Notes under the pieces: generated by a model | Told to the model about the DNA's origin: nothing | What the model saw: the letters and a program-made list of their open reading frames with translations, nothing else | Database searches by the model: none | Program-made: the position numbers and the translations under genes | NCBI RefSeq assembly: GCF_000981585.1 | Contig: NZ_LN831776.1 | Span: forward strand, 2,185,001-2,249,000 | Reading direction: 5' to 3' | Source: Paenibacillus riograndensis SBR5 | GTDB lineage: Bacteria; Bacillota; Bacilli; Paenibacillales; Paenibacillaceae | Length of the DNA stretch: 64,000 nucleotides | In this document: piece after piece, positions 14,690 to 62,920 of the stretch | Layout: the number at the start of each line of letters is the position of its first letter | How positions within the stretch are numbered: the stretch's first letter is position 1

Positions 14690-14875
14690 CTGCACTTATT
14701 GCAATAGAATACTTATGGTTCTGTAACAAATCGCGTTTTGCTGTATTTCGTGCAATAGATTTTCAGATTTGGAGTCAAAACCAGCTATTCTACGGGATTC
14801 TACTGTACAGAGTGCAACAGATTGAATTTTTCGGCCAATTTACGGGTTATCTGCTGCAGAAAGTGCAATAGAATG
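14690..14875 (+). repeat. intergenic repeat family A, four units at 51/62/51 bp
   Basis: Four units share a core like CTGCTGTAnnnnGTGCAATAGAAT. The TGCAA anchors fall at 14700, 14751, 14813 and 14864, giving spacings 51, 62 and 51. The same spacing order recurs at 56376-56540. The repeat fills most of the 14670-14993 gap between the fructokinase and the secreted GH32 genes. No T-tract or coding signal is seen. Confidence 0.75.
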
Positions 14876-14993
14876 TGTTGACACCTGTGTAGAAAAGCTT
14901 CGCCATAGGCATCCGGCCAGTTATGCAACCGTAACTGGCCAGCTTTTTAACAAGAGGATGAAAATTGCGCAGACGGGAAATGGAGGACAACAG

Positions 14994-17900
14994 ATGAAGA
15001 AGAAATTCAGGACAGTACTGTGCTTTCTGCTGGTTATAGGAACCGTGATGGCTTCCTCGGGCCTTTACGCAGTAAATCCTGCCACGGGCTGGGCTGCGCC
15101 AGCAGATCAGGGGACAGGGGAACCGGACAAGGAGGGGCTTGCAATTAATGAGAACGCTGCCAAGGTAATAACAAATCTGACGGGATGGCAAGTCAAAGGA
15201 AAAGGAGAGATGAAGAATACCGCAGAAGGGCTGTTGCTGACATCCGATCCGCAGCAGAATGTAATGGCTGTGTCCGAAACAGCGGCAGAGGATTTTTTGT
15301 ACGAAGCCGATGTGATGCTCAAGGAATTGAAAGCGGATACTTCTTTGATCTTCCGTTCGGATGATGACGGGAAGAATTCGTATATGCTGCAGCTTGCACC
15401 CGGGTCCGGGGTAATCCGCCTGAAAGATGCGGCAGGAGGGGCGGGCAAATTATACGAAGAACGACAGGTTTCCCTCAAGGAAGGGGAAATCTATCATCTC
15501 AAAGTAAAGGCTGAAGGGACATCGCTGAAGGTATATTGGGGGAATCAGTACAAACCTGTGATCGAGATTCAGGACAGTACATACCGTTCCGGCCGTCTTG
15601 GACTCCATGTGCGGGATGGTTCTGCTCTGTTCCAGAATATAACGGTAAGTGATCTGAAAGGAAACCTGGGTCCGGTGCTTATGAATAAAGGACAGTGGCA
15701 GCCTGACCTCAGAGGTCAAAAAGGTACCTCTGCAAACGGGAGCAAAGCACAGCGGATCTATTCTAGGCAAGCCGCCGATTTGGTATATGAAGGAACCATC
15801 TCTTTGGGCTCCAATGCTGCTGCGGCACTGGCTTTCCGTTCCTCTGCCGATGGCGTCCGCGGCTATGAAGCTGTCCTTGCGAGGGAAGGGGACCAGGTCG
15901 GTGTCAAGCTGGCAAAAGCGGACGGAACTGTAGTTGCAAGCTCAGAGCACCTTTATCCGAGCAGAACCGGAGCCAAACATCATGTGGAAATCAAGGCCAA
16001 GGGCAGCCGGATTCAAGTGTTCCTCGACGGGTATACCCCGGCGGCAATTGATATACAAGATACCGCGTATTCAACCGGACACGCCGGACTTGTGGTGAAA
16101 ACGGGAAACGCTTACTTTCAGGAAACCTATCTCACGGACGCGGACAGCTACTATAATGAAACTTTCCGTCCCCGGTATCATTATTCGCCGGTCCGCGGTT
16201 CCGCCAGTGACCCGAACGGGCTGGTCTATTTCGAAGGCGAATACCATCTCTTCCATCAGGATGGAGGCACATGGGCTCATGCCGTCAGCAAGGATATGCT
16301 GAACTGGAAACGCTTGCCGATTGCCCTTCCATGGAATGATTACGGGCATATCTGGTCCGGGGCTGCTGTAGCGGATGCAGCGAATGCATCAGGTCTGTTC
16401 ACAGATTCGGGGGGCAAAGGCCTGATTGCCTATTATACTTCCTATAACCCGGATGGCCCGAACGGCAACCAGCGGATTGGCCTGGCTTACAGCAAGGATA
16501 AGGGGCGCACCTGGGAATACGCCAAGGACCGTCCGATTGTGATTGAGAACCCCGGTAAAAACGGAGAAGATCCGGGAGGCTGGGATTTCCGCGATCCCAA
16601 GGTGGTCCGGGATGACGGGAATAACCGCTGGGTGATGGTGGTGTCCGGTGGCGATCATATCCGGTTTTTCACCTCAACCAATTTGCTGGACTGGACGTTG
16701 ACCGATAATTGGGGGTATGGGGATTATGTCCGCGGCGGTGTATGGGAATGCCCGGACTTGTTCCCGCTGACTGTACAGGGGACATCGCAGAAGAAATGGG
16801 TGCTCATGATCAGCACGGGCGCGAATCCGGCAACTGGAGGTTCGGATTCGGAATATTTTGTGGGGAGTCTGACGGCTGAAGGTAAATTCGTGAATGACAA
16901 CCCGGCCGGGAAGGTCTTGCGGACAGACTTTGGCAAAGAGTATTATGCCTCCATGTCGTTCTCGGACATGCCGGATGGGCGCAGAGTGATGCTGGCGTGG
17001 ATGTCCAACTGGGATTATCCGTTTGCTTTCCCTACTTCAGGCTGGAAGGGTGAGTTGACGGTTCCGAGAGAGGTTACCCTGGTCATGACCCCTGAGGGGC
17101 TCCGGCTTGCCCAGAGTCCGGTTAAGGAAATAGAGCAGCTGCGGAGCAGGCTGTTCACTGCAGCGGATAAGAGGGTCAATTCTTCTTCTCCCAACCTGCT
17201 GAAGGGTCTTGTAGCCGGTGCGTATGAAATTGAAGCCGAACTGGAGATTCCGGACGGCAGCACCGCAACAGAGTTTGGGTTTAACGTGCGTGAAGGAGCG
17301 GATCAGAAGACGGTTGTTGGCTACAAGGTAGGCGAAAGCCAGCTATTCGTTGACCGGTCCGCTTCCGGGGTAACGGATTTCTCCAGTCTTTTTAGTACAA
17401 GACATGAAGCGGCTATGACAGCGGAGAACAAGCGGATCAAGCTGCGGATTTTGGTGGATGAATCTTCTGTTGAGGTTTTTGGCAATGGGGGCAAGGCGGT
17501 GTTCTCTGAAGTCATTTTTCCTGACCCGGCCAGCAGGGCAATGAGCTTCTACAGCCAGGGCGGCATGGTGAAGGTGATATCGCTGAAAGTGAATAAGCTG
17601 GGACCGGTATGGAATTCAGACAGCAGCGCAGCCACCCGGATTGCCATGGATACCGCTGACCGTGAATTGGAGACCGGGGACAGCGTGACGCTGCAGGCGG
17701 CAGTGGAGAACGGGCCCGGCAATGGGGTTCACCCGCTGAAGTGGAAGTCGAGCAATGAAGAGGTGGCCGGTATTAGTGCAGCGGATTTTTCCCAGGCAAC
17801 CCTTCAGGCGAAAAAAGCAGGGGAGGCCGTCATTACGGTATCCACCCCGAACGGCAAGGCATCTGCCAGCCTGGTGGTAAAAGTATACGGCGGCGAATTT

Positions 17901-18848
17901 CATACCAATCTCAGCGGCTGGACCCAGGACTTGTCCATGGCTTCATGGATCGCCACAGGGGATGGCATTCGCGGGAAATACTCCAGCGACGCAAATCACA
18001 TGGCCCAAGAGCAGGCGGGTAATTTTACGTATGAAGCCGACATGAAGCTTGGTGAATCCGGCGGGGCGGGTTCGCTTCTGTTCCGTGCAAGCGGGGATGG
18101 GCGCAGCGGCTACTACTTGAATCTGGACCCGAACATGAAGTCTGTCCGCCTGTTCTACAAGCTCGACGGGCGGTTCGAGGAACGGCAGGTTCTGGCGAAA
18201 TATCCGGCCTTTATCCTGCCGGGTCAAACCTACAACATCAAGATTCAAGCGGAAGGCCCGCGCATCATCGTGTATATGGGAGGACGGCAGATCATGGACC
18301 TGAAGGACGGTACGTTTGCGGAGGGCCATTTCGGGCTTCATGTTTTTGGCGGGGAGGCTTCTTTTCAGAATGTAAAGGTGACCGGGGGAGCGCCAGCGGA
18401 CTTGATGACCTCAAGCCTGGTGAATACTGCCTCCGGGAAATCCCTGTATACAGACAGCCTGACAAATGGCGAAGCTGTTAAAGTGCGGAATGCCAATGAA
18501 GCCACGGATCAGAAATGGGTGTTTGTGCCGACAGGAGATGAAGCAGGCTCCTACTCCATCCGCACGACTGCCGGACAGGCGCTTGATCTGGACACCGGAC
18601 AGAATAGAATCCAGCTATATTCTTATCTGGGCTACAATAATCAGCGGTGGATCATCCAGAAGAATGAGGATGGCTCGGCTGCCATTATCTCTGCCCATCA
18701 ACATCTGGCTCTGGCCATATCCGGGGATGGCTCCAAACTTACTTTAGAGGAGTATCGAACAGATGAAATGCGTCAGAAGTGGAGAATAAACCCTGATTCA
18801 CATGGAAGCTTCAAAGGCACAGAAGAAATCAGGCCGTCAGCGGAGTGA
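14994..18848 (+). CDS. secreted multidomain GH32 fructan hydrolase (levanase/inulinase-like)
   Basis: The protein is 1284 aa from ATG 14994 (GGAGG upstream). A signal peptide covers about 1-35, then two LamG/DUF1080-like beta-sandwich modules to about residue 390. The GH32 catalytic domain has SDPNG (nucleophile Asp406), FRDP (Asp534) and WECPD (Glu585), with the GH32 C-terminal sandwich to about 870. A Big2-like Ig domain follows (about 878-966), a third LamG/DUF1080-like module (about 967-1135), and a ricin-B-like carbohydrate-binding domain with QKW/QRW motifs to the end. There is no LPxTG or SLH anchor, so release or sugar-mediated attachment is likely. WMNDPNG is replaced by GSASDPNG. 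It should cut polymeric levan or inulin outside and feed the adjacent importer. Confidence 0.9.
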   Translation: MKKKFRTVLCFLLVIGTVMASSGLYAVNPATGWAAPADQGTGEPDKEGLAINENAAKVITNLTGWQVKGKGEMKNTAEGLLLTSDPQQNVMAVSETAAEDFLYEADVMLKELKADTSLIFRSDDDGKNSYMLQLAPGSGVIRLKDAAGGAGKLYEERQVSLKEGEIYHLKVKAEGTSLKVYWGNQYKPVIEIQDSTYRSGRLGLHVRDGSALFQNITVSDLKGNLGPVLMNKGQWQPDLRGQKGTSANGSKAQRIYSRQAADLVYEGTISLGSNAAAALAFRSSADGVRGYEAVLAREGDQVGVKLAKADGTVVASSEHLYPSRTGAKHHVEIKAKGSRIQVFLDGYTPAAIDIQDTAYSTGHAGLVVKTGNAYFQETYLTDADSYYNETFRPRYHYSPVRGSASDPNGLVYFEGEYHLFHQDGGTWAHAVSKDMLNWKRLPIALPWNDYGHIWSGAAVADAANASGLFTDSGGKGLIAYYTSYNPDGPNGNQRIGLAYSKDKGRTWEYAKDRPIVIENPGKNGEDPGGWDFRDPKVVRDDGNNRWVMVVSGGDHIRFFTSTNLLDWTLTDNWGYGDYVRGGVWECPDLFPLTVQGTSQKKWVLMISTGANPATGGSDSEYFVGSLTAEGKFVNDNPAGKVLRTDFGKEYYASMSFSDMPDGRRVMLAWMSNWDYPFAFPTSGWKGELTVPREVTLVMTPEGLRLAQSPVKEIEQLRSRLFTAADKRVNSSSPNLLKGLVAGAYEIEAELEIPDGSTATEFGFNVREGADQKTVVGYKVGESQLFVDRSASGVTDFSSLFSTRHEAAMTAENKRIKLRILVDESSVEVFGNGGKAVFSEVIFPDPASRAMSFYSQGGMVKVISLKVNKLGPVWNSDSSAATRIAMDTADRELETGDSVTLQAAVENGPGNGVHPLKWKSSNEEVAGISAADFSQATLQAKKAGEAVITVSTPNGKASASLVVKVYGGEFHTNLSGWTQDLSMASWIATGDGIRGKYSSDANHMAQEQAGNFTYEADMKLGESGGAGSLLFRASGDGRSGYYLNLDPNMKSVRLFYKLDGRFEERQVLAKYPAFILPGQTYNIKIQAEGPRIIVYMGGRQIMDLKDGTFAEGHFGLHVFGGEASFQNVKVTGGAPADLMTSSLVNTASGKSLYTDSLTNGEAVKVRNANEATDQKWVFVPTGDEAGSYSIRTTAGQALDLDTGQNRIQLYSYLGYNNQRWIIQKNEDGSAAIISAHQHLALAISGDGSKLTLEEYRTDEMRQKWRINPDSHGSFKGTEEIRPSAE

Positions 18849-18922
18849 AGCGGACAGAGAAGACGAATGAGTGCTGAAGGGACGGCAGCGAAATCCGGTC
18901 AAGAAAAGTAGAGCAAGACGGC

Positions 18923-18966
18923 AAAAAGAGATCAACGGAGTCATTACCGTTGATCTCTTTTTTTAA
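18923..18966 (+). terminator. intrinsic terminator after secreted GH32
   Basis: A perfect 16-bp stem (18923-18938 with 18947-18962; core GAGATCAACGG) with an 8-nt loop ends in a long T-tract. Confidence 0.88.
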
Positions 18967-18989
18967 AAATTTATATGTTTTGGGGGAAG

Positions 18990-19100
18990 TGACGTCCGTA
19001 ATCCTGCGGAATAGCCGAATCTTCTATCCATAATTGCTCTCCTGTCCGTAACGGCTGCGGATCGATCGAGAAGGAATAGGGCGATCCGTCTTTACCGGTT
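18990..19100 (+). repeat. degenerate intergenic repeat, family D-like
   Basis: GTCCG-containing units at 18994 and 19044 are 50 bp apart and resemble the 5115-5245 repeat (CGGAATAGCCGAAT, CTCCTGTCCGTAACGG). Sequence to 19100 is more degenerate. It is part of the 569-bp gene-free stretch 18849-19417. Confidence 0.45.
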
Positions 19101-19107
19101 CCTCGCA

Positions 19108-19305
19108 GGTGCTAGTTGGAAAAAGGGAACTTATTTTTCCAAAAATCAAGAAATCCTGAGATTGAAGTGGAAAAAGTAAACTTAATTGGGCTACTTCTCC
19201 TGTCTCATGGCGAAATGAGCTGAATTAGTGTCCCTTTTTCCACTTCATCTGCCCGAGGGTAGGGTACTCCCGCAAATTAGTGTACCTTTTTCCACTTAAA
19301 AAGTT
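19108..19305. repeat. intergenic repeat family B, two direct plus two inverted units
   Basis: Two units of type AGTGGAAAAAGTAAACTTAATT (GGA anchors at 19118 and 19169, 51 bp) are followed by two in reverse (AATTAGTGTACCTTTTTCCACTT; anchors 19239 and 19291, 52 bp). The same 2+2 arrangement occurs at 44841-45022. No gene is seen in it. Confidence 0.7.
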
Positions 19306-19344
19306 GCCGTAGGATTTATGGGGAGTCGTTCTCCAGGTAACGCT

Positions 19345-19398
19345 AGAACCAAGACGGCTGCGCTGTCCCGTGGAGGACCGCACAGCCGTTTTGGTTCT
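19345..19398. terminator. long hairpin at the 3' end of the MFS gene
   Basis: A 19-bp stem (19345-19363 with 19380-19398) has one G-T pair and one mismatch and lies 20 nt past the stop codon of the leftward MFS gene. It lacks a T-tract on either strand, so it may protect the mRNA 3' end or be a weak terminator. Confidence 0.5.
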
Positions 19399-19417
19399 GA
19401 AGCCACTTTTGCAGCCC

Positions 19418-20914
19418 TCACGCTTTTTCAGCAATAGCCTGCTTCAGCTGCGCTCCGGGCTCCTGATCGGAAGCCTGCCCGACCCGTTTGATGAAGAAGG
19501 CCAGCAGCAAGCCGATGATGCCGATACCTACAATGACGAGATAGGCATCGTTGATCCCCTGGATAGAAGCTTCCATAATCATATGTTCCTTGGAGGCGCC
19601 TTTTGCTCCGCCTGCAGCCATCATATCCATCAAGTGTGTTGTGGTACGGCTGGTCATCACGGTGACGAGCAGGGAAGTTCCTACGGCACCGGCCACTTGC
19701 CGGATCGTATTGGAGATCGCCGTTCCGTGCGCATTCAGCTTGGAAGGCAATTGATTCAAGCCTAAGGTCTGAATAGGCATGAGCAGCAATGCCATCCCGA
19801 TCCGCCGGCCGGTTGACATCAGCACCAGGTACGTGTAATTGGTCGAATCCGTCAGGTTCACAAAGCTCAGAGTCGTTACAATGGTGATCAGCAGACCGGT
19901 GACGGCAAGCCATTTGGCTCCGAACCGGTCGAACAGCTTGCCGGTGACCGGCATCAGCAGCCCCATGACAAGCGCGCCGGGAAGCAGCAGCAAGCCGGAT
20001 TCCATCGCTGTATAGCCGCGGGCATTCTGCAGATACAGAGGCAGGAGCATCATATCCGCATACATGATGATCGTAACTGCGATATTAATAATCGTAGTTA
20101 ACGAAAACATGTTGTATTTAAAGACCCGGAGATCAAGCAGCGGGCTGGAAGAAGCCAGCTGCCGCCAGGTGAACAAACCGAGCGACAGGACGCCGGCTGC
20201 CAGAGTAGCAATTACCTCTGCGCTCGACCATCCTGCGCTGGCTGCCCGGCTGAAGCCATACAGCAATGTTCCGAAGCCGACGGTGGAGAGGATGACGCTG
20301 GCCAGGTCAATTTTGGGGTACGAGCGTTCCGCTACATTCTTCAAATAGATAAATCCGCAGATAATTACAATGGCAGTCAGCGGGAGCATCCCGTAAAACA
20401 TAGTCTCCCATGAATAATGCTCCAAAATATATCCGGCCAGCGTAGGGCCGATTGCAGGTGCAAAAATAATCGCTAACCCGACCATACCCATGGCTGCTCC
20501 GCGTTTTTCGCGGGGGAAGAGGGTTAAGATGACGTTGGTAAGCAGCGGCATAATAATCCCGGCGCCGGCGGCCTGAATCATTCGCCCGGTCAGCAGAATG
20601 GGGAAGCTGGTTGCCAGGGCCGATACAACCGTTCCGGCCAAAAATATAAACATCGAGCTCTGGAACAGCTCACGCGTGGTGAACCGCTGCATCAGAAAGG
20701 CTGTAATCGGGATGAGTACCCCGTTAACCAGCATATACCCGGTGGTCAGCCATTGCGCCGTAGCAGCCGTAATATTAAAATCATGCATTAGTTCCGGCGT
20801 GGCAACGCTCATGACCGTCTGGTTCAGTGTCGCCAGAAAGGCGCCCAAAATCATAATGAACAATATGGGGCCTTTTTTCACGGAACTGCTTATTGCTTCT
20901 GTCTTGTTACTCAC
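19418..20914 (-). CDS. DHA2 family drug efflux MFS transporter (EmrB/QacA type)
   Basis: The protein is 498 aa from a GTG at 20914, which has AAGGATGGA upstream; an ATG at 20944 has no such site. It has 14 predicted transmembrane segments and family motifs including the early LGAFLATLNQTVMSVATPEL, the GRMIQAAGAGIIMPL motif in segment 4-5 and RGAAMGMVGLAIIFAPAIGP in segment 5 (antiporter motif C). It probably exports toxic organic compounds in exchange for protons. It is divergent from a TetR gene, a standard repressor/pump pair, and the intergenic TACAA/TTGTA dyads are candidate operators. Confidence 0.92.
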   Translation of the reverse strand: MSNKTEAISSSVKKGPILFIMILGAFLATLNQTVMSVATPELMHDFNITAATAQWLTTGYMLVNGVLIPITAFLMQRFTTRELFQSSMFIFLAGTVVSALATSFPILLTGRMIQAAGAGIIMPLLTNVILTLFPREKRGAAMGMVGLAIIFAPAIGPTLAGYILEHYSWETMFYGMLPLTAIVIICGFIYLKNVAERSYPKIDLASVILSTVGFGTLLYGFSRAASAGWSSAEVIATLAAGVLSLGLFTWRQLASSSPLLDLRVFKYNMFSLTTIINIAVTIIMYADMMLLPLYLQNARGYTAMESGLLLLPGALVMGLLMPVTGKLFDRFGAKWLAVTGLLITIVTTLSFVNLTDSTNYTYLVLMSTGRRIGMALLLMPIQTLGLNQLPSKLNAHGTAISNTIRQVAGAVGTSLLVTVMTSRTTTHLMDMMAAGGAKGASKEHMIMEASIQGINDAYLVIVGIGIIGLLLAFFIKRVGQASDQEPGAQLKQAIAEKA

Positions 20915-24373: not shown

Positions 24374-24448
24374 TTCTTTCATGCGAGCCTGAAAAGCTAA
24401 GATGGGCCTATCGGGCCGCTTGTGCGCCGATTCGATTCGAAACTAATC

Positions 24449-24582
24449 TATTGCCCTCTGTACAGCAGAAGGTAGCGGAAAAGGTGTTTTTAAGCAGCAG
24501 GCAAGAAATCAATTGCACAAAATACAGCAGAATGCGGTTTACCCAAAAATAAGGAGCATTCTGCTGCATAAAGTGCAATTGC
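24449..24582. repeat. intergenic repeat family A, mixed orientation
   Basis: Two units on the minus strand (anchors 24455 and 24517, 62 bp apart) and one on the plus strand (anchor 24574) share the GCTGTAnnnnnTGCAATnGA core. The 33 bases at 24502-24534, reverse-complemented, match 56410-56442 with a single difference. Confidence 0.7.
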
Positions 24583-24594
24583 GATTAGAGGGGA

Positions 24595-28011: not shown

Positions 28012-28066
28012 AAAAGGACGAAGAACGTCCCGTATCCCATGGCTTTTTGGGGTGCGGGATTTTTTT
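28012..28066 (+). promoter_or_regulatory. attenuator-like leader of nuclease-like gene 1
   Basis: The leader starts with the hairpin GGACG-AAGAA-CGTCC (28016-28030). A 10-bp terminator stem follows (28029-28038 with 28049-28058, two G-T pairs) and runs into a seven-T tract at 28060-28066, 22 nt before the start codon. The first hairpin's 3' arm shares two bases with the terminator's 5' arm. The same order and sequence (AAAAGGACGAAG.ACGTCCCGTA) precede the paralogue at 51409. Constitutive termination would leave a ~55-nt RNA; read-through or antitermination would express the gene. It matches no riboswitch class I know. Confidence 0.65.
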
Positions 28067-28088
28067 GTGCAGAGGAGGAAGTTGGGGA

Positions 28089-28769
28089 ATGGGTTTTGCT
28101 GAAGAACACCAAAAGTGGCTGGATTCTCATAAGAAACGTAGAACAGGAGAACGACTAGACCGGTTGGTGCGAGGGCACGGGCATGGTGAGAAAATGTTTG
28201 TGGAGCGGGTGTGGTGGCCGATTTTTGGTCATATGGATGATCTTCATCCGGAATACGAGGTCTCGGATTGGCGGGGCCGGCCTTATTTCGTTGATCTGGT
28301 CTGGAAACCGGGACAGGTTAAGTTTGCCATTGAGATCAAGGGGTACGGGCCTCATGTGCAGCAGACGGATCGGACCAGGTACCGGCAGGAATTAAACAGA
28401 GAAACTTATCTGCAAATCGCCGGGTATCGTGTGGTGGCGGTTCCCTATGATGATCTAGAGGCCGCACCGGAGTTGACCATTTCTCTATTCAAATCCTTGC
28501 TCGCGCCATGTATGTTGAAGAACGCGGAGGGAGAGGGCCGTCCGTATACAAGGCTGGAGAGCGACATCCTGCGGTTAGCGGCACGTTGGAACGGATCCAT
28601 CCGGCCTGTTGATCTCGTAAACGAGCTTGGAGTGAATCCGCGCACAGTTAAAAAACTGATGAATTCTTTATGTGTGAAAGGGAGATTCAGACCCATTCTG
28701 GCCCCTGGCAGCAATAGAGTGTGTCGGTATGAATATATTCATTCTTTTATGGAAGACGAGTTATGGTAG
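28089..28769 (+). CDS. PD-(D/E)XK nuclease-like protein with C-terminal winged helix, copy 1
   Basis: The protein is 226 aa from ATG 28089 (GAGGAGG upstream). A basic N terminus (HKKRRTGERLDRLVRGHGHG) precedes a core that reads DWRGRPYFVDLVW then KFAIEIKGYG. Asp69, Glu82 and Lys84 have the spacing of the PD-(D/E)XK nuclease motif, similar to DUF559/Vsr-like endonucleases. Residues about 155-225 look like a winged helix (RPVDLVNELGVNPRTVKKLM). The paralogue at 51409 is nearly identical over 40-125. A short DNA-cutting or DNA-binding factor is inferred; the biological role is unknown. The 51-bp palindrome array begins 39 nt after its stop codon. Confidence 0.75.
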   Translation: MGFAEEHQKWLDSHKKRRTGERLDRLVRGHGHGEKMFVERVWWPIFGHMDDLHPEYEVSDWRGRPYFVDLVWKPGQVKFAIEIKGYGPHVQQTDRTRYRQELNRETYLQIAGYRVVAVPYDDLEAAPELTISLFKSLLAPCMLKNAEGEGRPYTRLESDILRLAARWNGSIRPVDLVNELGVNPRTVKKLMNSLCVKGRFRPILAPGSNRVCRYEYIHSFMEDELW

Positions 28770-28807
28770 GGTTACTACGAGCAGGTGTAAGCAAACCACT
28801 GGGCAGA

Positions 28808-29258
28808 ATGAGAGGTGAAAATACCTCTGATTTGCCCGCAACCGGCCAGCGGGGCGAAATGAGAGGTAAAAATACCTCTGATCCGCCCGCAACCGGCCAA
28901 CGGAGCAGAATGAGAGGTAAAAATACCTCTGATTTGCCCAGAATCGGCCTAGGGGGCAGAATGAGAGGTAAAAATACCTCTGATTTGCCCAGAATCGGCC
29001 AGCTGAGCAGAATGAGAGGTAAAAATACCTCTGATTTGCCCAGAATCGGCCAACGGAGCAAAATGAGAGGTAAAAATACCTCTGATCCGCCCGCAACCGG
29101 CCAGCGGGGCAGAATGAGAGGTAAAAATACCTCTGATTTGCCCAGAATCGGCCAACGGAGCAAAATGAGAGGTATAAATACCTCTGATCCGTCCGCAACC
29201 GGCCTACGGAGCAGAATGAGAGGTAAAAATACCTCTGATTTGCCCGCAACCGGCCTCC
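28808..29258. repeat. tandem array of nine 51-bp palindrome units (family C)
   Basis: Units start at 28808, 28859, 28910, 28961, 29012, 29063, 29114, 29165 and 29216, exactly 51 bp apart. Each carries ATGAGAGGTAAAAATACCTC, whose AGAGGTA/TACCTCT arms form a 7-bp stem with a 4-nt loop. Linkers (CGGCCAGCGGGGC, CGGCCAACGGAGC and similar) vary. Changes within the core lie in the loop (unit 8) or at the innermost pair (unit 1, G for A). Because 51 is a multiple of three, long frames stay open on both strands, but they lack ribosome-binding sites and are not called as genes. The array fills most of the 28770-29329 gap. Confidence 0.95.
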
Positions 29259-44840: not shown

Positions 44841-45022
44841 AAGTGGAATTAGTGAACCTAAATGTGCTCAAATCGCGTTACACAGAGGCATTAGTTGGAA
44901 TAAGTAGACTTATTTTTAGTGAAATCACCTCCTAAGAGGCAAATCGGCCGGATTAAGTGTACTTTTTCCCACATGCGCTTGTTGGAGAAGGAGATGGGGA
45001 GATTTAAGTTTACTTTTTCCAC
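44841..45022. repeat. intergenic repeat family B, two direct plus two inverted units, copy 2
   Basis: Direct units AAGTGGAATTAGTGAAC and AGTTGGAATAAGTAGACTT (GGA anchors 44845 and 44897, 52 bp) are followed by reverse units (GATTAAGTGTACTTTTTCCC and ATTTAAGTTTACTTTTTCC; anchors 44967 and 45018, 51 bp). The layout is the same as at 19108-19305. Confidence 0.65.
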
Positions 45023-45071
45023 TATAGCCGGCTTTTGCTGCTTGCAATCAGAGGCCCTCCCCCTCAATCCA

Positions 45072-51068: not shown

Positions 51069-51099
51069 AGAGAAAGGCTCAAACATAAAAGCGTTGAGG

Positions 51100-51199
51100 C
51101 GCAAACAGTATGCGGCAAACAGCAAGCAGTAAGCGCAAAGCACAAATAGTAAGCGGCGAACAGCACACCGGAAGCCGCAAAGCACAATAGTAAGCGGCA
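51100..51199 (+). repeat. degenerate ~20-bp tandem repeat
   Basis: GCGCAAAG/GCGGCGAA/GCCGCAAAG-type words recur at 51133, 51153, 51174 and 51194 (20-21 bp apart) with AGTAAGC linkers. The interval 51069-51291 otherwise has no gene. Confidence 0.55.
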
Positions 51200-51291: not shown

Positions 51292-51321
51292 TTGACAGCC
51301 GCGGGCACGCCACCCTATACT
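51292..51321 (+). promoter_or_regulatory. near-consensus sigma-A promoter of nuclease-like gene 2
   Basis: A perfect TTGACA (51292-51297), an 18-bp spacer and TATACT (51316-51321). The same box distances as at copy 1 put the start point just before the GGACG hairpin. Confidence 0.75.
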
Positions 51322-51326
51322 TATTT

Positions 51327-51381
51327 CCAAAAGGACGAAGCACGTCCCGTACTCATGGATTCATGGGTCCGGGACTTTTTT
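51327..51381 (+). promoter_or_regulatory. attenuator-like leader of nuclease-like gene 2
   Basis: The leader has hairpin GGACG-AAGCA-CGTCC (51333-51347), then a 12-bp terminator stem (51346-51357 with 51362-51373; one mismatch, one G-T) with loop GATT and a six-T tract to 51381, 28 nt before the start codon. It aligns with the leader at 28012-28066 in sequence and order, but the terminator stem differs by changes that keep pairing (for example ATCCC/GGGGT versus CTCATG/CATGGG). This supports selection on the structure. Confidence 0.65.
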
Positions 51382-51408
51382 GCGTCCACGGGAAGGAGTT
51401 TGCATGTT

Positions 51409-52083
51409 ATGGGATTTCAAGAAGAACACAGCACTTGGCTCAAGTATCACTTGGACCGTAGGAAAGGGGAAAGAAGAGATCGCCTGGAACGGGGACATGG
51501 TCACGGAGAGCGCATGTTTCTGGAGCAGATATGGTGGCCGATGATGGGAACACTACAGAACCTTCACCCCGAATATGAGGTCGTAGATTGGCGAGGGAGG
51601 CCCTATTTTGTTGATCTTGTCTGGAGGCCGGGGCAAGTGAAATTCGCGTTCGAAGTGAAGGGCTACGGCCCGCATGTGCAGAATATGGACCGTACCCGTT
51701 ACCGGCAAGAGCTCAACCGTGAAACATTTCTGCAAATTGCCGGCTATCGGGTAGTTTCGATTCCCTATGATGACCTCGAAGCGAGCCCGCAGCTTATAAT
51801 TTCGCTGATAAGGACCCTGGTGGCCCCGTTTATCAGCGGGAATAACGCAATGGAGCATTTTACTCGTCTGGAGCGGGAGATGATCCGGCTTGCGGTTTCC
51901 CGGGATGGATTGATCCGCCCGGTTGACGTAGTCAAGGAGCTTGGAGTCAACCTGCGGACGGTTCGAAATATGCTGCAGGCGCTTTGTGCAAAAGGGAGGC
52001 TCAGACCTGTGCCTACGAATAGTGGAAGGAGAGTTTGCCGATATGAGGTGATTCATTCCTTCTCCGACGAACAGCTGTGGTGA
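51409..52083 (+). CDS. PD-(D/E)XK nuclease-like protein with C-terminal winged helix, copy 2
   Basis: The protein is 224 aa from ATG 51409 (GGAAGGAG upstream). It has the same plan as copy 1: basic N terminus, DWRGRPYFVDLVW with Asp69, KFAFEVKGYG with Glu82 and Lys84, RTRYRQELNRET, and a C-terminal winged helix (RPVDVVKELGVNLRTVRNML). Sequence is close to identical to copy 1 over about 40-125 and more diverged in the linker and C terminus. It follows the SNF2 gene. A nuclease is inferred from the motif; restriction, repair or a regulator that only binds DNA are alternatives. Confidence 0.75.
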   Translation: MGFQEEHSTWLKYHLDRRKGERRDRLERGHGHGERMFLEQIWWPMMGTLQNLHPEYEVVDWRGRPYFVDLVWRPGQVKFAFEVKGYGPHVQNMDRTRYRQELNRETFLQIAGYRVVSIPYDDLEASPQLIISLIRTLVAPFISGNNAMEHFTRLEREMIRLAVSRDGLIRPVDVVKELGVNLRTVRNMLQALCAKGRLRPVPTNSGRRVCRYEVIHSFSDEQLW

Positions 52084-55784: not shown

Positions 55785-55797
55785 AAGTCTGTGAGGC

Positions 55798-56202: not shown

Positions 56203-56364
56203 TCCGATCCCTCCTAAATTTAAGGTCACTTATCAGAATTGTACCATAATATTGCAGCCATGCCTCTATCCTGTGCGGAGAGTGTGGCAGAGTTTGCATT
56301 ACGGCTAGGTGAGGGAGTAAGGGAGGGGAGGTGAGGAAAAGAAACGACAGTAAACTGCAGCTTG

Positions 56365-56560
56365 ATTGTATTTTGTGCAATAGAATCTCAATCTGCTGCG
56401 GCAAAATGGCATTCTGCTGTATTTGGTGCAATTGATTTCTTGAGTTAGGCTCCTATTAAGCGTATTTCCTTGATTCTGCTGTATAAAGTGCAACAGAATC
56501 TGTTTTTTGTCTGATTTGGGGATAATCAGCTGCAGAAAGTGCAATAGAATCCAGCCGCAG
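56365..56560 (+). repeat. intergenic repeat family A, four units at 51/62/51 bp, copy 3
   Basis: The TGCAA anchors are at 56376, 56427, 56489 and 56540, spacings 51, 62 and 51, exactly as at 14690-14875. Cores read TGTATTTTGTGCAATAGAAT and variants (GTATAAAGTGCAACAGAATC, TGCAGAAAGTGCAATAGAAT). It makes up much of the 56203-56707 gap, the rest of which shows no gene. Confidence 0.75.
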
Positions 56561-56707
56561 CGCGGCACACTATAGAAGCAACTATGAGCGTGAGATGAAT
56601 TTGCAAGGATGGATTGCATTTTCACCCAAATTGAAAAGAAACCCAACAAAAAAACAAAGAACCAAAAGAACCAAAAGAACCAGCCACAGGCAAGTCCTTT
56701 GCAGCTA

Positions 56708-57982
56708 TCAGATGATCCCCCGGTCATGCCGGAACTGCTTGGGGGTGGTGGCGGTATATTTCTTAAATACTTTGGTAAAATAGCTCTGGTCGTTAAAATG
56801 CAGCCGGGTAGCGATATCCGACAGGGTGATCCCCGGCAGCTCCATCAGGCGTTTGGCCTCCTCGATCCGTTCCCGCTGAATGTAATCGCTGACGGCAAGG
56901 CCCGTTTCCTTCTTGAACAGCTGGGAGAGGTAGCTGGCATTCAGCCCGGCAACGCCCGCAAGCCTGCTCAAAGTAAGCTCTTCATACAGATGGTTGAAAA
57001 TATAATTCTGGCACAGCGCAGAGGTGCGGGACAGCTTGGACCTGCGGTTGTCCTTCACATGATCGGCAAAATCGCACAGAGCCGCAAGCTGGGCACGGTC
57101 CACCGCCGGAATATCCTTCAGCTCCTCAATGTGCTGAATATGAAAATCGCTCAGCGTGTAGGCGATCTCCCAGAACAGCCCTCCGTCAATGGCGGCGCGG
57201 GTCGCCAGGGTGATGGAGGAGATGGCGAGGTTCTTTTTGCTGCGCAGCTGGCTTGTCTTGGAGAGCAGCCCGTACTGATCTTCGTTGAAGCCTGCATGAG
57301 TCTGGAGCAGCCCGCCCTTGTCTCCGCTGCGGATATGCCGGAACAGCTCGCGCTCTTGGCTCGGATCATGGTGCAGCCAGATATTCTCCCGCCGGTAGGA
57401 CAGATTCAGATCAGGTGCGCTGTCCTTAAGCTGCGCAGTCTGGAGGGGCTGCGAATCTTGCAGCAGCTCGCTGATGGACAGAGCCTGGCCGGTAGCCAGC
57501 GTATACAGCAGAATGGCCGCATGATACAGCCGCATCCGGTCCAGCACGGGCAGACTGCGGTAATATTGCAGCCAGGCCTCTTGCCCTCCAGCAGGAATGT
57601 TGTGGTCACGCAGCAAGATGCCCGCATTTTCTTCGGTCAGGGGAGCGTACAGCGAAGGGCCGATAACGATGGCCCCGGCCGGCTCCAGCTCTCCGTATAG
57701 AGGGAGGACGATGAAATTCTCCAGGTAAGCCGTTGTGCAGATTAGCGGAAAAGCAGCAGTCCTTGAATCCTTCCGGCTGTCTGCGGCCTCTTGCATCATT
57801 TCTAGAACTTCAGCCGGAAGCCCTTGGACGCCTTCAACCGGAGGCCGGATGTGGGCAGACGGATGGGGTGTCTGCTCCGTTTCGCCTTTGGAATTCATCC
57901 ATGCCACCGGCAGCCGATAAGCTTCGTACAGCAGCCTGCAAATATAAGGAATCCGTTCATGATCCTCCAGAAGCTCCAGCAT
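56708..57982 (-). CDS. AraC family transcriptional regulator with large N-terminal domain
   Basis: The protein is 424 aa from ATG 57982 (AAAGGGGGAGG upstream). The N-terminal ~310 residues are not a cupin; they look like a PocR/GAF-like ligand-sensing region (FIVLPLYGELEPAGAIVIGP). The C-terminal AraC domain covers about 325-420 (LSRLAGVAGLNASYLSQLFK; YFTKVFKKYTATTPKQFR). It is divergent from the GH3 gene at 58097, with a 114-bp shared promoter region, and probably controls it in response to a sugar. Confidence 0.9.
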   Translation of the reverse strand: MLELLEDHERIPYICRLLYEAYRLPVAWMNSKGETEQTPHPSAHIRPPVEGVQGLPAEVLEMMQEAADSRKDSRTAAFPLICTTAYLENFIVLPLYGELEPAGAIVIGPSLYAPLTEENAGILLRDHNIPAGGQEAWLQYYRSLPVLDRMRLYHAAILLYTLATGQALSISELLQDSQPLQTAQLKDSAPDLNLSYRRENIWLHHDPSQERELFRHIRSGDKGGLLQTHAGFNEDQYGLLSKTSQLRSKKNLAISSITLATRAAIDGGLFWEIAYTLSDFHIQHIEELKDIPAVDRAQLAALCDFADHVKDNRRSKLSRTSALCQNYIFNHLYEELTLSRLAGVAGLNASYLSQLFKKETGLAVSDYIQRERIEEAKRLMELPGITLSDIATRLHFNDQSYFTKVFKKYTATTPKQFRHDRGII

Positions 57983-58069
57983 GTTCCCTCCCCCTTTACC
58001 TAATGAAAATACCAAGAATACAAATATTCTGCCATAAATCTGCCGTGAAGTATATTAGAATGAAAAATA

Positions 58070-58083
58070 AGAAAGCACTTTCA
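58070..58083. promoter_or_regulatory. cre-like site in the GH3 5' region
   Basis: AGAAAGCACTTTCA differs from the palindrome TGAAAGCGCTTTCA at two positions. It lies just before the AAGGAGG of the GH3 gene at 58097, so a bound CcpA would act as a roadblock. Confidence 0.5.
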
Positions 58084-58096
58084 AGGAGGTTTCCCC

Positions 58097-60367
58097 ATGA
58101 CTACTGACATTCGACATCTCATTTCGCAATTGACGCTTGAAGAGAAGGCCGCACTCTGCTCAGGCCTTGATTTCTGGCATACCCAAGGGATTGAGCGGCT
58201 GGGCATCCCGTCTGTAATGATGACAGACGGTCCGCATGGCCTGCGCAAACAGGCGGAGAGCGCAGACCATCTGGGTCTTCATAACAGCGTGCCTGCCACT
58301 TGTTTCCCTTCAGCGGCAGGACTCGCTTCTTCCTGGAACCGGGAGCTGATCCGCCGGGTCGGTGAAGCATTGGGCAGAGAATGCCAGGCTGAGGATGTGG
58401 CCGTTCTGCTGGGACCAGGCACCAATATCAAACGTTCCCCGCTCAATGGGCGAAATTTTGAATATTTTTCTGAAGATCCTTATTTGTCTTCGGAGATGGC
58501 CGCGAATCATATTCAGGGTGTGCAGAGCCAGGGAGTGGGCACATCGCTGAAGCATTTTGCCGCCAATAACCAGGAGCACCGCAGAATGTCCACCGATGCG
58601 GTGATTGACGAGCGGACGCTGCGGGAGATTTATCTGGCGAGCTTCGAAGGGGCGGTGAAGCAAAGCCAGCCATGGAGCGTCATGTGCTCCTACAACCGGG
58701 TGAACGGCGAATATGCTTCGGAAAGTGAAACGTTGCTGACACGGATTCTCCGGGACGAGTGGGGGTTTGAAGGCTTCGTAGTGTCCGACTGGGGAGCGGT
58801 GAACGAGCGGGTGAAGGCGCTGCAGGCCGGGCTTGAACTGGAGATGCCTTCAAGCGGAGGGATCGGAGATGCCAAAATCGTCGCTGCTGTGAACAGCGGC
58901 GAGCTGTCCATAGAGACGCTGGACCTTGCGGTGGAGCGGCTGCTTGGCTTTATTTTCAAGCGGGAGGAGAACCGCCAAGAGAACATCCCGTTTGAGCCGG
59001 ACGAGCACCACCGTCTGGCGCGTGAGGTGGCCAGGGAAAGCATGGTGCTGCTGAAGAATGAAGACGGCCTTCTCCCGCTGGCCCCGCAAGGCACGCTTGC
59101 CATCATCGGTGAGTTCGCCAAGAAGCCGCGTTATCAGGGGGGCGGCAGCTCGCATGTGAATCCGACGAGGCTGGATGATGCTTTTGCAGAACTGCAGGCG
59201 GTGGCGGGAGATGCTGCAAGCTTCCTGTATGCGCAGGGCTATGAGCTGGGCAGCGATGATGTGAACGAAAATCTTCTGCGTGAAGCGCGCGACACAGCCG
59301 CCAAGTCGGATGCCGCAGTGCTGTTCCTTGGGCTGCCGGACAGATACGAGTCGGAGGGGTATGACCGCAGCCATCTGTCGCTGCCCGCCAGCCACATTGC
59401 GCTGATCGGGGCGGTGGCTGAGGTGCAGGACAATATTATCGTAGTGCTGAGCAATGGTTCCCCGGTAGAAATGCCCTGGATCGGCAAAACGAAGGCCGTT
59501 CTGGAAGGCTACTTGGGCGGTCAGGCTTTCGGCGGCGCGGTTGCCGACCTGCTCTTCGGCGTCGTTAGTCCAAGCGGGAAGCTGGCCGAAACGTTCCCTG
59601 TGAAGCTAAGCGACAACCCGTCGTTCCTGAATTTTCCCGGTGAAGGCGACAAGGTGGAATACAAGGAAGGCTTGTTCGTCGGCTACCGCTATTATGACAA
59701 AAAAGAGATGGAGCCGCTGTTCCCGTTCGGCTTCGGGCTGAGCTACACCGAATTTGAATATAGTGACTTGGTGCTGGATAAAACCGGCATAAACGATACT
59801 GAAACCGTCCAGGTCACCGTAACCGTGAAGAATACCGGCAGCCGGACCGGGCAGGAGATCGTGCAGCTCTATGTCAGTGACGTGGAGAGCAGTGTCATCC
59901 GGCCGCTGCAGGAGCTGAAAGGCTTCCAGAAGGTAGCACTGCAGCCCGGAGAGGCGCGGGGGGTGTCTTTTACACTGGATAAACGGGCTTTTGCCTATTA
60001 CAATGTGCAGCTTGGCGATTGGCATGTCGAGAGCGGAGCTTTCCGGATTGGGGTCGGCGCTTCCTCCCGCGATATCCGTCTGAATGCTTTCCTTGAAGTG
60101 GCTTCGACGACGGAGATAGCAGTGAGCTTTCACCGCAATACTACCGTCGGGGATTTGCTGGACAATCCGCTTACAGCAGAGCACGCGAAGAAATTCAGCA
60201 GTATTTTCGGACTCGAAAGTGCGATGGAGGATAATCCGGACATGTTCGTCGCGATGATGAAATATATGCCGCTGCGGGCCATGATCGGCTTCGGGCAGGG
60301 GAATTACACCGAGGAGGATTTGGCTCAGGATCTGCGGCAGCTGAATGCGCTGGCGGCAGCGAAATAA
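58097..60367 (+). CDS. GH3 beta-glucosidase
   Basis: This 756-aa protein has the GH3 (alpha/beta)8 domain with the nucleophile Asp231 in [10 protein letters not shown], followed by the alpha/beta sandwich domain and a fibronectin-III-like domain ([30 protein letters not shown]). The extra ~100 C-terminal residues ([11 protein letters not shown] to the end) are typical of Bacillales beta-glucosidases. There is no signal peptide, so it hydrolyses imported beta-glucosides. It is divergent from the AraC gene at 56708 and has a cre-like site and a terminator at 60424. Confidence 0.93.
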
Positions 60368-60423
60368 AGGGGATCGGGAGAACGTGATCCGCTGAAGAAG
60401 CTGAATTCGCAGATGCCATAAGT

Positions 60424-60458
60424 ACCCGCTGACGCAGTGATGCGGCAGCGGTTCTTTT
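60424..60458 (+). terminator. intrinsic terminator after beta-glucosidase gene
   Basis: A 13-bp stem ACCCGCTGACGCA/TGCGGCAGCGGTT (60424-60436 with 60441-60453) with GTGA loop is followed by CTTTTGG. Confidence 0.7.
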
Positions 60459-60572
60459 GGTCTAAAGAGGTGTCCTCCGTCCTTAGACGGGCGGAAATTG
60501 CTCCGGAATCTAGGGGTTGCCTTTCGCCCGGTAATTTGCTAACATACGTTGTAACATAATAATTCTTTTTTT

Positions 60573-60711
60573 AGTTTTCTAGGGTTCCGCGGCGCATTCA
60601 GGCCGGCAGGTCCGAGGGAAAACGCACGGAATTATAGTTCCGTGTCTACACGGAGGGATAAAAGCCCGGGAGGTATCGTCGTTGGACGATGGCCTTCCGG
60701 GTTTATTTTTT
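60573..60711 (+). promoter_or_regulatory. guanidine-I (ykkC-yxkD) riboswitch with terminator
   Basis: The conserved class elements are present in order: CTAGGGTTCCGC near 60580, GGTCCGAGGGAAAACGCACG near 60610, and ACACGGAGGGATAAAAGCCC from 60649. The last element runs into the terminator stem CCCGGGAGG/CCTTCCGGG (60664 onward), which ends in TTTATTTTTTT. Guanidinium binding would free the downstream SMR genes from termination. The preceding 60459-60572 is AT-rich before the aptamer and holds no gene. Confidence 0.93.
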
Positions 60712-60736
60712 TGGAAAAAGAGGAGGAGATTCAAGC

Positions 60737-61081
60737 ATGAAAAACAACAGCGCATGGTTCAAAATCGCAGGCGCCGCCTGTCTGGAGGTAGTGTGGGTGA
60801 TCGGACTGAAGCATGCTTCTGTTCCCTGGGAATGGCTGATTACGGGGCTGGCGCTGCTGGTCAGCTTCTATACCATAATCGCGGCGAGCAGAAAGCTGCC
60901 GGTAGGGACGGTATATTCTGTATTTGTCGGATTAGGCACGGCCGGTACTGTTTTGGCAGATATGCTCTGGTTCGGTGAACCGTTCCGGTTGATCAAGCTG
61001 GTGCTGATATTGGTGCTGCTGGCCGGAGTCATTGGATTGAAGCTGGTTACCGGAAATTCCCATTCAAAGGAGGTGTCTTAA
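60737..61081 (+). CDS. SMR family guanidinium exporter subunit, YkkC-like
   Basis: This 114-aa protein has four transmembrane helices and the conserved Glu17 in GAACLEVVWVIGLKHA that carries the proton and guanidinium in SMR exporters. The signature GTVYSVFVGLGTAGTVL is present. ATG 60737 follows GAGGAGG. It is directly controlled by the guanidine-I riboswitch, so guanidinium export is the expected role. The second SMR gene begins 1 nt after its stop codon, so the two likely form a heterodimer. Confidence 0.93.
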   Translation: MKNNSAWFKIAGAACLEVVWVIGLKHASVPWEWLITGLALLVSFYTIIAASRKLPVGTVYSVFVGLGTAGTVLADMLWFGEPFRLIKLVLILVLLAGVIGLKLVTGNSHSKEVS

Positions 61082-61082
61082 C

Positions 61083-61397
61083 ATGGATTGGCTGATGCTG
61101 ATTGCCGCAGGCTGTTGCGAGATGCTCGGAGTGGCTATGCTCGGCAAGCTGCAGCGGGACCGGACCTGGCCGACCTTCTGTCTGTTCCTGCTGGGTTTTG
61201 GCGGCAGTCTGCTGCTGCTGTCCCAGGCGATGAACACGCTCCCGATGGGGACGGCCTATGCGGTATGGACAGGGATTGGCGCTTCCGGGGGAGCGGTGCT
61301 CGGTATGCTGCTCTATGGGGAGGGACGCGAATTACGGCGGATCATCTGCATCGTAATGATTCTCGGAGCAGCCGTCGGCCTCAAATTATTAGGCTGA
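61083..61397 (+). CDS. SMR family guanidinium exporter subunit, YkkD-like
   Basis: This 104-aa protein has four transmembrane helices with Glu13 in AAGCCEMLGVAMLGKL and the signature GTAYAVWTGIGASGGAVLG. It is translated from an AAAGGAGGTG box that sits at the end of the upstream SMR gene. The pair matches the usual YkkC/YkkD arrangement under the same riboswitch. Confidence 0.93.
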   Translation: MDWLMLIAAGCCEMLGVAMLGKLQRDRTWPTFCLFLLGFGGSLLLLSQAMNTLPMGTAYAVWTGIGASGGAVLGMLLYGEGRELRRIICIVMILGAAVGLKLLG

Positions 61398-61590
61398 TTT
61401 TGCAGTGAAGGCAATGAAATGGACATGCCCGGCTGTCTGCAGCATACTTTCGGATGGTCATAGCAGGCTATGCGGCAGCAGTTTTCACGAAATGGATACC
61501 TGTACGATGTTTCGATTGAGGTAACATGGTAAGTATATATAGTAGGTATAATAAGGTAATCCAATTTAATGGTTAAGGGAGACTTTGTTC

Positions 61591-62454
61591 ATGAACACCA
61601 ATATATCCGGTACTATCACACTCAAGGACGGAACCGCCGTGACAAAAATGGGCCAGGGAACCTGGAACATGGGCGACAGCACAGCCACGCGTGACGAAGA
61701 AATAGCTGCTCTCAGGCTGGGGGTGGAGCTGGGCATGAATCTCATTGATACCGCCGAAATGTATGGGGACGGCCGTTCCGAGGAAATGGTGGGTGAAGCC
61801 ATCCGGGGCATCCGGGATCAGGTTTTTCTCGTTTCCAAGGTGCACCCGCAAAATGCCGGTCTGGACCGGATAACCCGCAGCTGTGAAGAGAGTCTGAAGC
61901 GCCTGGGAACGGATCATCTGGACTTGTACCTTCTTCACTGGCGGGGGAAAGTCCCGCTGGAAGAGACGGTGAAGGGGATGGAGCAGCTCGTAGCCTCCGG
62001 TAAAATCGCCCGCTGGGGCGTATCCAACCTCGATACCGCGGATATGAAGGAGCTGCTGCGCATTCCTGGTGGAGACCGCTGTGCTGTAAATCAGGTCCTC
62101 TACCATCTCGGCTCCCGGGGCATTGAGCATGAACTGCTGCCATGGCAGCGTACCCACAAGATCCCTGTAATGGCATACTCTCCGCTGGCCCAGGCAGGCA
62201 AGCTCCGCAAAGGAGTGACTGAGAATGAGACGGTACGCGAGATAGCAGAGAAACATGGGGCAACCCCGTTGCAGATCATGCTGGCCTGGAGCATCCGGGA
62301 AGGCGATATCATTGCCATCCCCAAAGCATCGAGCCGCAAGCATGTCACCGAAAACGCCGAAGCCGCGAAGATCCGGCTGAGCGAAGAGGAATGCTGGAAG
62401 CTCGATGATGCTTTTCCTCAGCCTGCCTGGAAGGTGCCGCTGGATATGATTTGA
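61591..62454 (+). CDS. aldo/keto reductase
   Basis: The protein is 287 aa from ATG 61591 (AAGGGAG upstream). It has the AKR tetrad: Asp in NLIDTAEMYGDGRSEE with Tyr, Lys in FLVSKVHPQN and His in LYLLHWRGK. The NADPH pocket IAIPKASSRKHVTENA is near the C terminus. It resembles the YvgN/2,5-diketogluconate-reductase-like group. The substrate is not predictable. A terminator follows. Confidence 0.93.
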   Translation: MNTNISGTITLKDGTAVTKMGQGTWNMGDSTATRDEEIAALRLGVELGMNLIDTAEMYGDGRSEEMVGEAIRGIRDQVFLVSKVHPQNAGLDRITRSCEESLKRLGTDHLDLYLLHWRGKVPLEETVKGMEQLVASGKIARWGVSNLDTADMKELLRIPGGDRCAVNQVLYHLGSRGIEHELLPWQRTHKIPVMAYSPLAQAGKLRKGVTENETVREIAEKHGATPLQIMLAWSIREGDIIAIPKASSRKHVTENAEAAKIRLSEEECWKLDDAFPQPAWKVPLDMI

Positions 62455-62468
62455 GTTTAGTTATGGAG

Positions 62469-62503
62469 AGGCTGTCCCGGGAGTTTGGGGACGGCCTTTT
62501 TTT
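62469..62503 (+). terminator. intrinsic terminator after aldo/keto reductase
   Basis: A 10-bp stem AGGCTGTCCC/GGGACGGCCT (one G-T) is followed by a seven-T tract. Confidence 0.8.
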
Positions 62504-62614
62504 GGTTGGGCGCGGCGAAGCCGGCAGAGGAGGAAACAACGGCAAAGGTGCTATTGCTGGGCGCGGCTAGTTCGGATTCTTCGCTATTCACAGTGCGCCC
62601 AGCTACTAGGCCAA

Positions 62615-62920
62615 ATGAGAGGTAAAAATACCTCTGATTCCGCCCCAAGCGGCCCGCTGAGGCAAATGAGAGGTAAAAATACCTCTGATTCCGCTCAAAG
62701 CGGCCCGCTGAGGCAAATGAGAGGTAAAAGTACCTCTGATTCCGCTCAAAGCGGCCCGCTGAGGCAAATGAGAGGTAAAAATACCTCTGATTCCGCCCCA
62801 AGCAGGCCGCTGAGCCAAATGAGAGGTAAAAATACCTCTGATTCCGCCCCAAGCAGGCCGCTGAGCCAAATGAGAGGTAAAAGTACCTCTGATTCCGCCC
62901 CAAGCGGGCCGCTGGAGCTC
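62615..62920. repeat. tandem array of six 51-bp palindrome units (family C, copy 2)
   Basis: Units start at 62615, 62666, 62717, 62768, 62819 and 62870, exactly 51 bp apart. Each has the same core ATGAGAGGTAAAAATACCTC (loop AAAA or AAAG) as the array at 28808, but different linkers (CCGCCCCAAGCGGCCCGCTG). All six stems are fully paired. The array ends 11 nt before the 5'-truncated GH1 pseudogene. Confidence 0.95.

Follow-up and report, generated by a model that had tools for sequence, protein, structure and literature searches.

A fixed spacing of about 51 bp across intergenic repeats of Paenibacillus riograndensis SBR5

Why should intergenic repeats with different cores keep the same distance between their copies? 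The question is raised by a 64-kb stretch of the 7.92-Mb single-contig genome of Paenibacillus riograndensis SBR5, here called the window. A sequence-only reading of the window had described four repeat families (A to D) with steps of 50 to 52 bp and, in family A, 62 bp, and had proposed that a common constraint on spacing is implied. Gene order in the window is that of Paenibacillus jilunlii CGMCC 1.10239, and the main blocks are ~90 to 94% identical.

The 51-bp distance against chance

As an unbiased sample of the genome, we used 20 stretches of 20 kb, one every 400 kb (400 kb in total); stretch L041, which overlaps another by 4 kb, was included in the 10-mer autocorrelation, the segment scans, and the gene-context count and was left out of later pooled own-genome scans. 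Direct 10-mer pairs in the intergenic DNA of this sample were most frequent at a distance of 51 bp (227 pairs), followed by 102 (128 pairs), 153 (78), 130 (58), and 42 bp (51), compared to 24 pairs summed across all distances in shuffled intergenic sequence. The sequence-only reading had named absence of enrichment genome-wide as the result that would count against it; in the sampled genome, enrichment over the shuffled control was present. Predicted coding DNA also had 51 bp as its top distance (215 of 629 10-mer pairs), in part because the ORF caller takes arrays as ORFs. When self-similar segments were scored (at least 18 of 22 identities; 101 distances tested, 30 to 130 bp), 51 to 52 bp accounted for 22 of the 43 intergenic segments in the unbiased sample, and a further 32 segments lay inside predicted coding DNA; a scan without the intergenic filter was led by distance 180 (22 segments), with 51 second (18 segments). 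Genome-wide counts of the real and reversed core patterns were 215 versus 1 for C, 35 versus 0 for A, and 215 versus 1 for B. These data confirm that a fixed ruler of ~51 bp across intergenic repeats is real. A coding-repeat explanation (51 is divisible by three, and the arrays are ORF-like, two of them having been called as ORFs in the unfiltered scan) was rejected, since the steps of 50, 52, and 62 bp in families A, B, and D break the frame.

Four-site elements and tandem arrays

Two architectures carry the ruler: four-site elements, or quartets (A1, A2, B, and D), and tandem arrays of n × 51 bp (C, E, and F). A quartet comprises four roughly dyad-symmetric sites of ~25 bp with centers 50 to 52, 61 to 62, and 50 to 52 bp apart. 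The 51/62/51 pattern reported for family A was recovered at both loci by profile scan and alignment, as A1 quartets on the plus strand at 14685 to 14873 (25-bp dyad sites at 14685, 14736, 14798, and 14849) and 56361 to 56549 (sites at 56361, 56412, 56474, and 56525). The reported 62-bp step at 24455 to 24517 is likewise there, within an A1 remnant found by profile scan on the minus strand (24446 to 24583) that retains three sites (24446, 24508, and 24559; spaced 62/51) and has a decayed outer fourth. The 25-bp A1 site reads about TTCTRYTGYA-nnnnn-TRCARYAGAA and the A2 site about TTTAATTGTA-nnnnn-TACAATTAAA, with TGYA...TRCA common to both. Exact 51/62/51 spacing occurred in 21 of 41 A1/A2 quartet candidates from a scan bounded to 50-53/60-63/50-53, some rows of which are overlaps of one element with its own flank. 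With spacing not so bounded, neighbor distances of the A profile were chiefly 51 (56 pairs), 62 (30 pairs), and 52 (16 pairs), in a profile that drifted from 262 to 615 hits over three rounds and whose low-scoring pairs are largely chance. Among 19 aligned A1 copies, conservation drops sharply beyond the outer sites at both ends. The four sites of an A1 quartet mostly point in the same direction, and by alignment the linkers within one quartet are not copies of each other.

For family B, the 51- and 52-bp steps were borne out at both loci. A profile scan placed a ++-- quartet of 22-bp sites on the plus strand at 19115 to 19296 (sites at 19115, 19166, 19223, and 19275; 51/57/52 start to start), which served as the orientation reference; the second, also ++-- on the plus strand, lies at 44842 to 45023 (44842, 44894, 44951, and 45002; 52/57/51), with a weak orientation call (score difference, 4.5). 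With spacing free up to 110 bp, 28 clusters of exactly four B sites were found, every one of them ++--, with start-to-start steps of 51-52/57/51-52 (one middle step of 59). Between dyad centers, set by hand from the arms, the middle step is 61.5 to 62 bp. The family D quartet, oriented --++, lies at 5060 to 5242 (23-bp sites at 5060, 5110, 5170, and 5220; 50/60/50 start to start by profile scan; 50/62/50 between dyads placed by hand). The 50-bp distance claimed for D thus held at this quartet; the other locus, 18994 to 19044, yielded one weak site (19029; score, 11.6) in a degenerate remnant (18994 to 19051) that adjoins the B quartet. D and B also form a composite element at L037:14733 and L068:10398 in the genome sample, in which the D quartet precedes the B quartet and the last D site is 85 bp from the first B site, start to start. 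The claim that the cores of A to D are unrelated stood in part: A1 and A2 stand apart, but profiles seeded with either B or D shift to C and E, and the cores of B, C, D, and E are alignable.

The family C arrays, reported as exactly 51 bp at two loci, bear this out with nine units of exactly 51 bp at 28803 to 29255 (plus strand; counted from 28811; core AGAGGTAAAAATACCTCT) and six at 62612 to 62914 (plus strand; counted from 62618); both have homologous arrays in P. jilunlii. The family core is AGAGGTAWWWRTACCTCT. In our own and seven other genomes, at loci chosen largely for holding C, 169 of 183 C neighbors within 150 bp were at 51 bp, four at 50, three at 52, and seven at 101 to 105. Segments of E and F are likewise at 51 bp, so that several 51-bp families of differing sequence (C, E, F, and others) coexist in one genome. 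Most arrays lie between predicted genes; the 51-bp unit leaves open frames that the ORF caller picks up. Orthologous arrays in P. jilunlii differ in copy number.

Repeats with other spacings and one known RNA element were also observed. A further family with a spacing of ~63 to 65 bp and cores such as ACAAAACTCGCTTCGGAAGCAT (L040:8956-9129, L053:4308-4404, and L023:9341-9435) is perhaps a six-turn-only member. Intergenic 41-bp repeats with a subperiod of 20 bp, ~four and two helical turns, lie at 51099 to 51199 of the window, and a 272-nt pair (28242 to 28513 and 51562 to 51833; 72% identical) sits in two related ORFs (28047 to 28769, without a Pfam match, and 51292 to 52083). An Rfam search of the window (E ≤ 1) returned above the cutoff only a guanidine-I riboswitch (60568 to 60674, plus strand; 82 bits). 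It precedes two small adjacent ORFs, 60689 to 61081 and 61083 to 61397, the first of which matches Pfam Multi_Drug_Res (small multidrug resistance exporters).

Linker length, orientation, and distribution

Linker length is retained in these elements and linker sequence is not. The 28 B quartets came from a scan that allowed any spacing up to 110 bp; their linkers share 49% identity, and linker lengths are 29-30/35/29-30 in 83 of 84 (one of 37), each of the 83 deviating from a fixed length by no more than 1 bp. In the bounded scan, A1 linkers (19 rows scoring at least 95) are 44% identical with lengths of 26-27/36-37/26-27, and A2 linkers (nine hand-picked quartets) are 31% identical with 26/37/26 in 26 of 27, values that show divergence at fixed spacing rather than unbiased lengths. 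C linkers inside one array are near-copies of each other, for comparison with the unique spacers that characterize CRISPR arrays; across our own and seven other genomes they are very different, with the spacing of 51 bp kept. Relative to P. jilunlii, and with no window base counted more than once, plain intergenic DNA carries 66 indels and 610 substitutions, compared to 3 and 139 in the aligned B and C elements of the window (P = 0.001), a count that is uncertain in the C arrays owing to unit-to-unit alignment; B alone has 0 and 34. The stretch around the B quartet at 44842 has 37 mismatches over 219 bp and an unchanged length (P = 0.02 at the intergenic rate). These data support selection on distance itself, and the retention of length without sequence is the strongest support for it.

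The ruler recurs in other species with other cores, which supports the proposed constraint on spacing. Pairs of C, with the gap left free, were found in 8 of 100 genomes of the genus. A2 pairs, sought at any spacing between 39 and 69 bp, were found in 16 of 245 genomes of the family, all within the genus (32 genus genomes drawn), and in 0 of 213 genomes of other genera. Of 31 A2 places, some of them orthologues of one another, 14 had a spacing of 51 bp and 10 a spacing of 62 bp; a further two had 50 bp, and 45, 52, 56, 61, and 63 bp occurred once each. Genome G017, which lacked a C pair in the free-gap search, has other cores at 50 (9 segments) and 51 bp (13 segments), together 22 of 66 intergenic segments, and quartet-like steps of 51/61/50 at its locus L151. 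Distances of 50 to 52 bp accounted for 3 of 11 segments in G008 and were present among other distances in G026, G076, and G052. They were absent from the stretches of G004 and G060 (the latter, with genes poorly called and 51% coding, had one segment each at 62 and 63), from the stretches scanned in G100, which belongs to another family, and from five 20-kb stretches of G058, which nevertheless has A2 pairs at 51 bp. A Bacillus-type core from the literature was absent among 398 genomes of the class.

Elements were placed nonrandomly with respect to genes. In intergenic gaps of at least 150 bp (20 stretches plus the window), they occupied 11 of the 28 gaps between convergent genes, 14 of the 89 between genes on the same strand, and none of the 28 between divergent genes (convergent versus divergent, P = 0.0003), indicating that elements lie behind genes and not between divergent promoters. 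With the terminus near 4.2 Mb, as read from GC skew, orientation agreed with the leading strand for 25 of 28 B and 24 of 26 C elements, although neighbors are not fully independent, a few B score differences are small, and C orientation rests on an A-rich loop. Between convergent genes, orientation followed replication for 10 of 10 B and 9 of 11 C; where transcription was neutral or opposed, it did so for 25 of 28 B and C elements. Orientation therefore appears to be set by replication direction more than by transcription. This polarity and the location at gene 3' ends fit either lagging-strand insertion or selection against fork conflict.

Comparison with P. jilunlii also bears on mobility. 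That species lacks the A1 quartets at 14685 and 56361, the D-B pair at 18994 to 19301, and the D quartet at 5060; the B quartet at 44842 and both C arrays are common to the two species. The absent stretches exceed element length, and no clean empty site was seen in this comparison. Target duplication at the ends of 19 A1 copies was not detected (match, 3.74 versus 3.67 in shuffled sequence). One B quartet (L062) carries an ORF in its middle linker (L062:16118-17080, minus strand); an autonomous B transposon was considered and rejected because the insert is an IS110-type transposase gene within the quartet (Pfam PF01548 and PF02371; DEDD_Tnp_IS110 and Transposase_20). Insertion sequences are also known to land in REPs (PMC1525189, the part available to us), to which this insertion may be compared. 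The B quartet at 19110 to 19305 had no match among plasmids and phages. A Y1-transposase search gave 12 hits at 11 places, including six near-identical 157-aa copies; elements lay within ~1.5 kb on both sides of one place, on one side of two, and at neither side of eight. The place flanked on both sides (L077, about 1397 to 1698; the same as L079) is a broken remnant 50 to 64% identical to the 157-aa copies; quartets of A and B lie to one side of it and an E array to the other. It resembles the remains of an IS200-type gene that decayed in a gap rich in repeats. A Y1/RAYT partner is considered unlikely, since this remnant alone, and none of the other ten places, is flanked on both sides.

Possible explanations and known systems

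We consider it about an even chance (~0.5) that the elements are intergenic noncoding arrays of ~25-bp dyads on one face of the helix, with distance selected through putative protein dimers that touch. One putative dimer would occupy each site, at about five helical turns (50 to 52 bp) from the next or, in the middle of a quartet, about six (61 to 62 bp); contact between neighboring dimers would place the distance, and not the linker, under selection. Sites are so diverse that a single protein would hardly recognize every one, which counts against the model; families may have come to differ as protein paralogues and their sites drifted together. Quartets would spread as units of ~190 bp, and arrays would lengthen or shorten through gain and loss of units. 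The role is likely to be either that of a transposition synapse for selfish elements or that of a complex for nucleoid structure or topology at the 3' ends of genes. The helical phasing suggested earlier is an arithmetic argument: 51 bp corresponds to 4.86 to 5.0 turns (0.14 turn short at 10.5 bp per turn) and 62 bp to 5.9 to 6.08 turns. Counting against protein dimers are the A2 spacings of 45 and 56 bp, this 0.14-turn shortfall, the lack of 50- to 52-bp segments in the G058 stretches, the lead of distance 180 in the unfiltered scan, and the transcription of such repeats in B. coagulans noted below. A larger version, in which putative oligomeric proteins on dyads five or six turns apart form a genus-wide, replication-polar lattice, with filaments of four or more dimers at the 3' ends of genes oriented from origin to terminus, seems improbable to us. 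Were it true, the lattice would serve chromosome topology, fork passage, or segregation, and the 52-nt tandem repeats already in print would be one of its offshoots.

Whether the dyads act as duplex DNA or as hairpins separates the touching-dimer model from its nearest rival, in which REPIN-like cores fold, as RNA or as single-stranded DNA in the lagging-strand template, and a transposase acting on single strands moves them; the folded unit would then dictate the spacing. The cores are indeed dyads, B and C follow replication, REP arrays of Pseudomonas fluorescens SBW25 likewise switch orientation across the chromosome (PMC3116915, in the sections available), A1 ends lack target duplication, and the Y1 remnant flanked on both sides raises the odds slightly. 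However, across 108 A1 and 32 A2 sites, kept after score-based row removal and with some A1 sites decayed, symmetric variable positions vary independently or less symmetrically than chance (A1 pair 5-19: 26 Watson-Crick versus 47 expected), which fits two half-sites read separately on duplex DNA rather than a selected stem. This absence of covariation in A speaks against hairpins. In C, several outer-arm pairs slightly exceed the Watson-Crick expectation (6-21: 92 versus 77) and two fall below, a less clear picture in which a hairpin may apply; the inner pairs are perfect by selection because sites were picked by GGTA....TACC. Given also that ten of the Y1 places lack elements on one or both sides within ~1.5 kb and that single strands would not be expected to keep linker length fixed while linker sequence varies freely, we regard folded mobile units as unlikely.

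Less likely still is a generating machine, by which slippage or a recombinase of fixed footprint would make ~51-bp units with no later selected function. Variable copy number between orthologous arrays and orientation along replication are consistent with it; A1 linkers that are not mutual copies exclude plain duplication as the source, and B linkers keep their lengths at a sequence identity of 49%. Shared descent alone, from one ancestral quartet whose spacing persists through rare indels, is already disfavored and in our view very improbable. It draws support from the drift of B, C, D, and E profiles into each other and from the TGYA...TRCA common to A1 and A2, and it is made slightly likelier by the origin of the indel-free A2 quartets in a bounded scan. 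Nevertheless, indels are no rarity in intergenic DNA (66 to 610 substitutions), at least 6.6 would be expected per pair at A2 divergence and almost none were seen in that scan, and the free-gap A2 search clusters at 51 and 62 bp all the same.

Among known systems, REP, BIME, and REPIN sequences resemble these elements in being extragenic and palindromic, with preferred spacings and inverted pairs, as far as described in the parts of PMC3116915 and PMC3733652 available to us. REP tandem clusters are oriented by chromosome half, like B and C, and SBW25 REP spacings of 71 and 110 bp differ between families (PMC3116915, in part). REPs carry a GTAG/CGTC tag and are flanked by a RAYT (PMC3116915 and PMC3733652, same parts); the tag was not seen by eye in our consensus cores, and Firmicutes are not among the phyla listed for such repeats in the section of PMC3733652 available. 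Compared to REPIN mobile units, inverted pairing of palindromes is found in B (++--) and D (--++), and A1 is mostly in one direction. Like MITEs, quartets are ~190 bp, dispersed, and present or absent between species, with sharp ends in A1; their terminal sites are themselves dyads, inverted in B, for comparison with MITE terminal repeats. The target-site duplication typical of MITEs was not found in the 19 A1 copies, and our searches revealed no MITE-style autonomous partner.

The closest likeness is to the repeats of constant 52-nt length known from Firmicutes, a puzzle in the published literature. An earlier paper (J Bacteriol, 2020, e00229-20) reportedly described constant 52-nt repeats. 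Leaving that paper aside, our literature searches turned up no account of quartets, of the 62-bp step, or of the polarity. Subirana and Messeguer (2021; PMC8161180, cited here from the parts available) described constant 51- to 53-nt tandem repeats in Bacillus, with many sequences per genome and particular abundance in Paenibacillus, and proposed either a protein whose polymerization on DNA depends on a constant repeat or transcribed RNAs; RNA-seq analyses of B. coagulans show such repeats to be transcribed (PMC8161180 and PMC8625621, in part). A dyad beyond shuffling (P ≤ 0.05) was found in 13 of 23 tested consensus units, of 27 printed in the same source. The C, E, and F arrays, with tandem units of 51 to 53 nt and several families of differing sequence in one genome, are of this published kind, and both the tandem idea and the polymerizing protein are already in print. 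Quartets fall outside the 51- to 53-nt tandem-unit definition; the parts of PMC8161180 at hand describe tandem arrays and not four-site elements, the 62-bp step, a linker-indel test, or replication polarity. As a short form of the 52-nt ruler, quartets add a second spacing quantum, a length constraint, and a direction apparently set by replication. These properties narrow the mechanism toward one that is double-stranded, phased, and oligomeric, and quartets supply ~190-bp probes for pulling down the putative protein.
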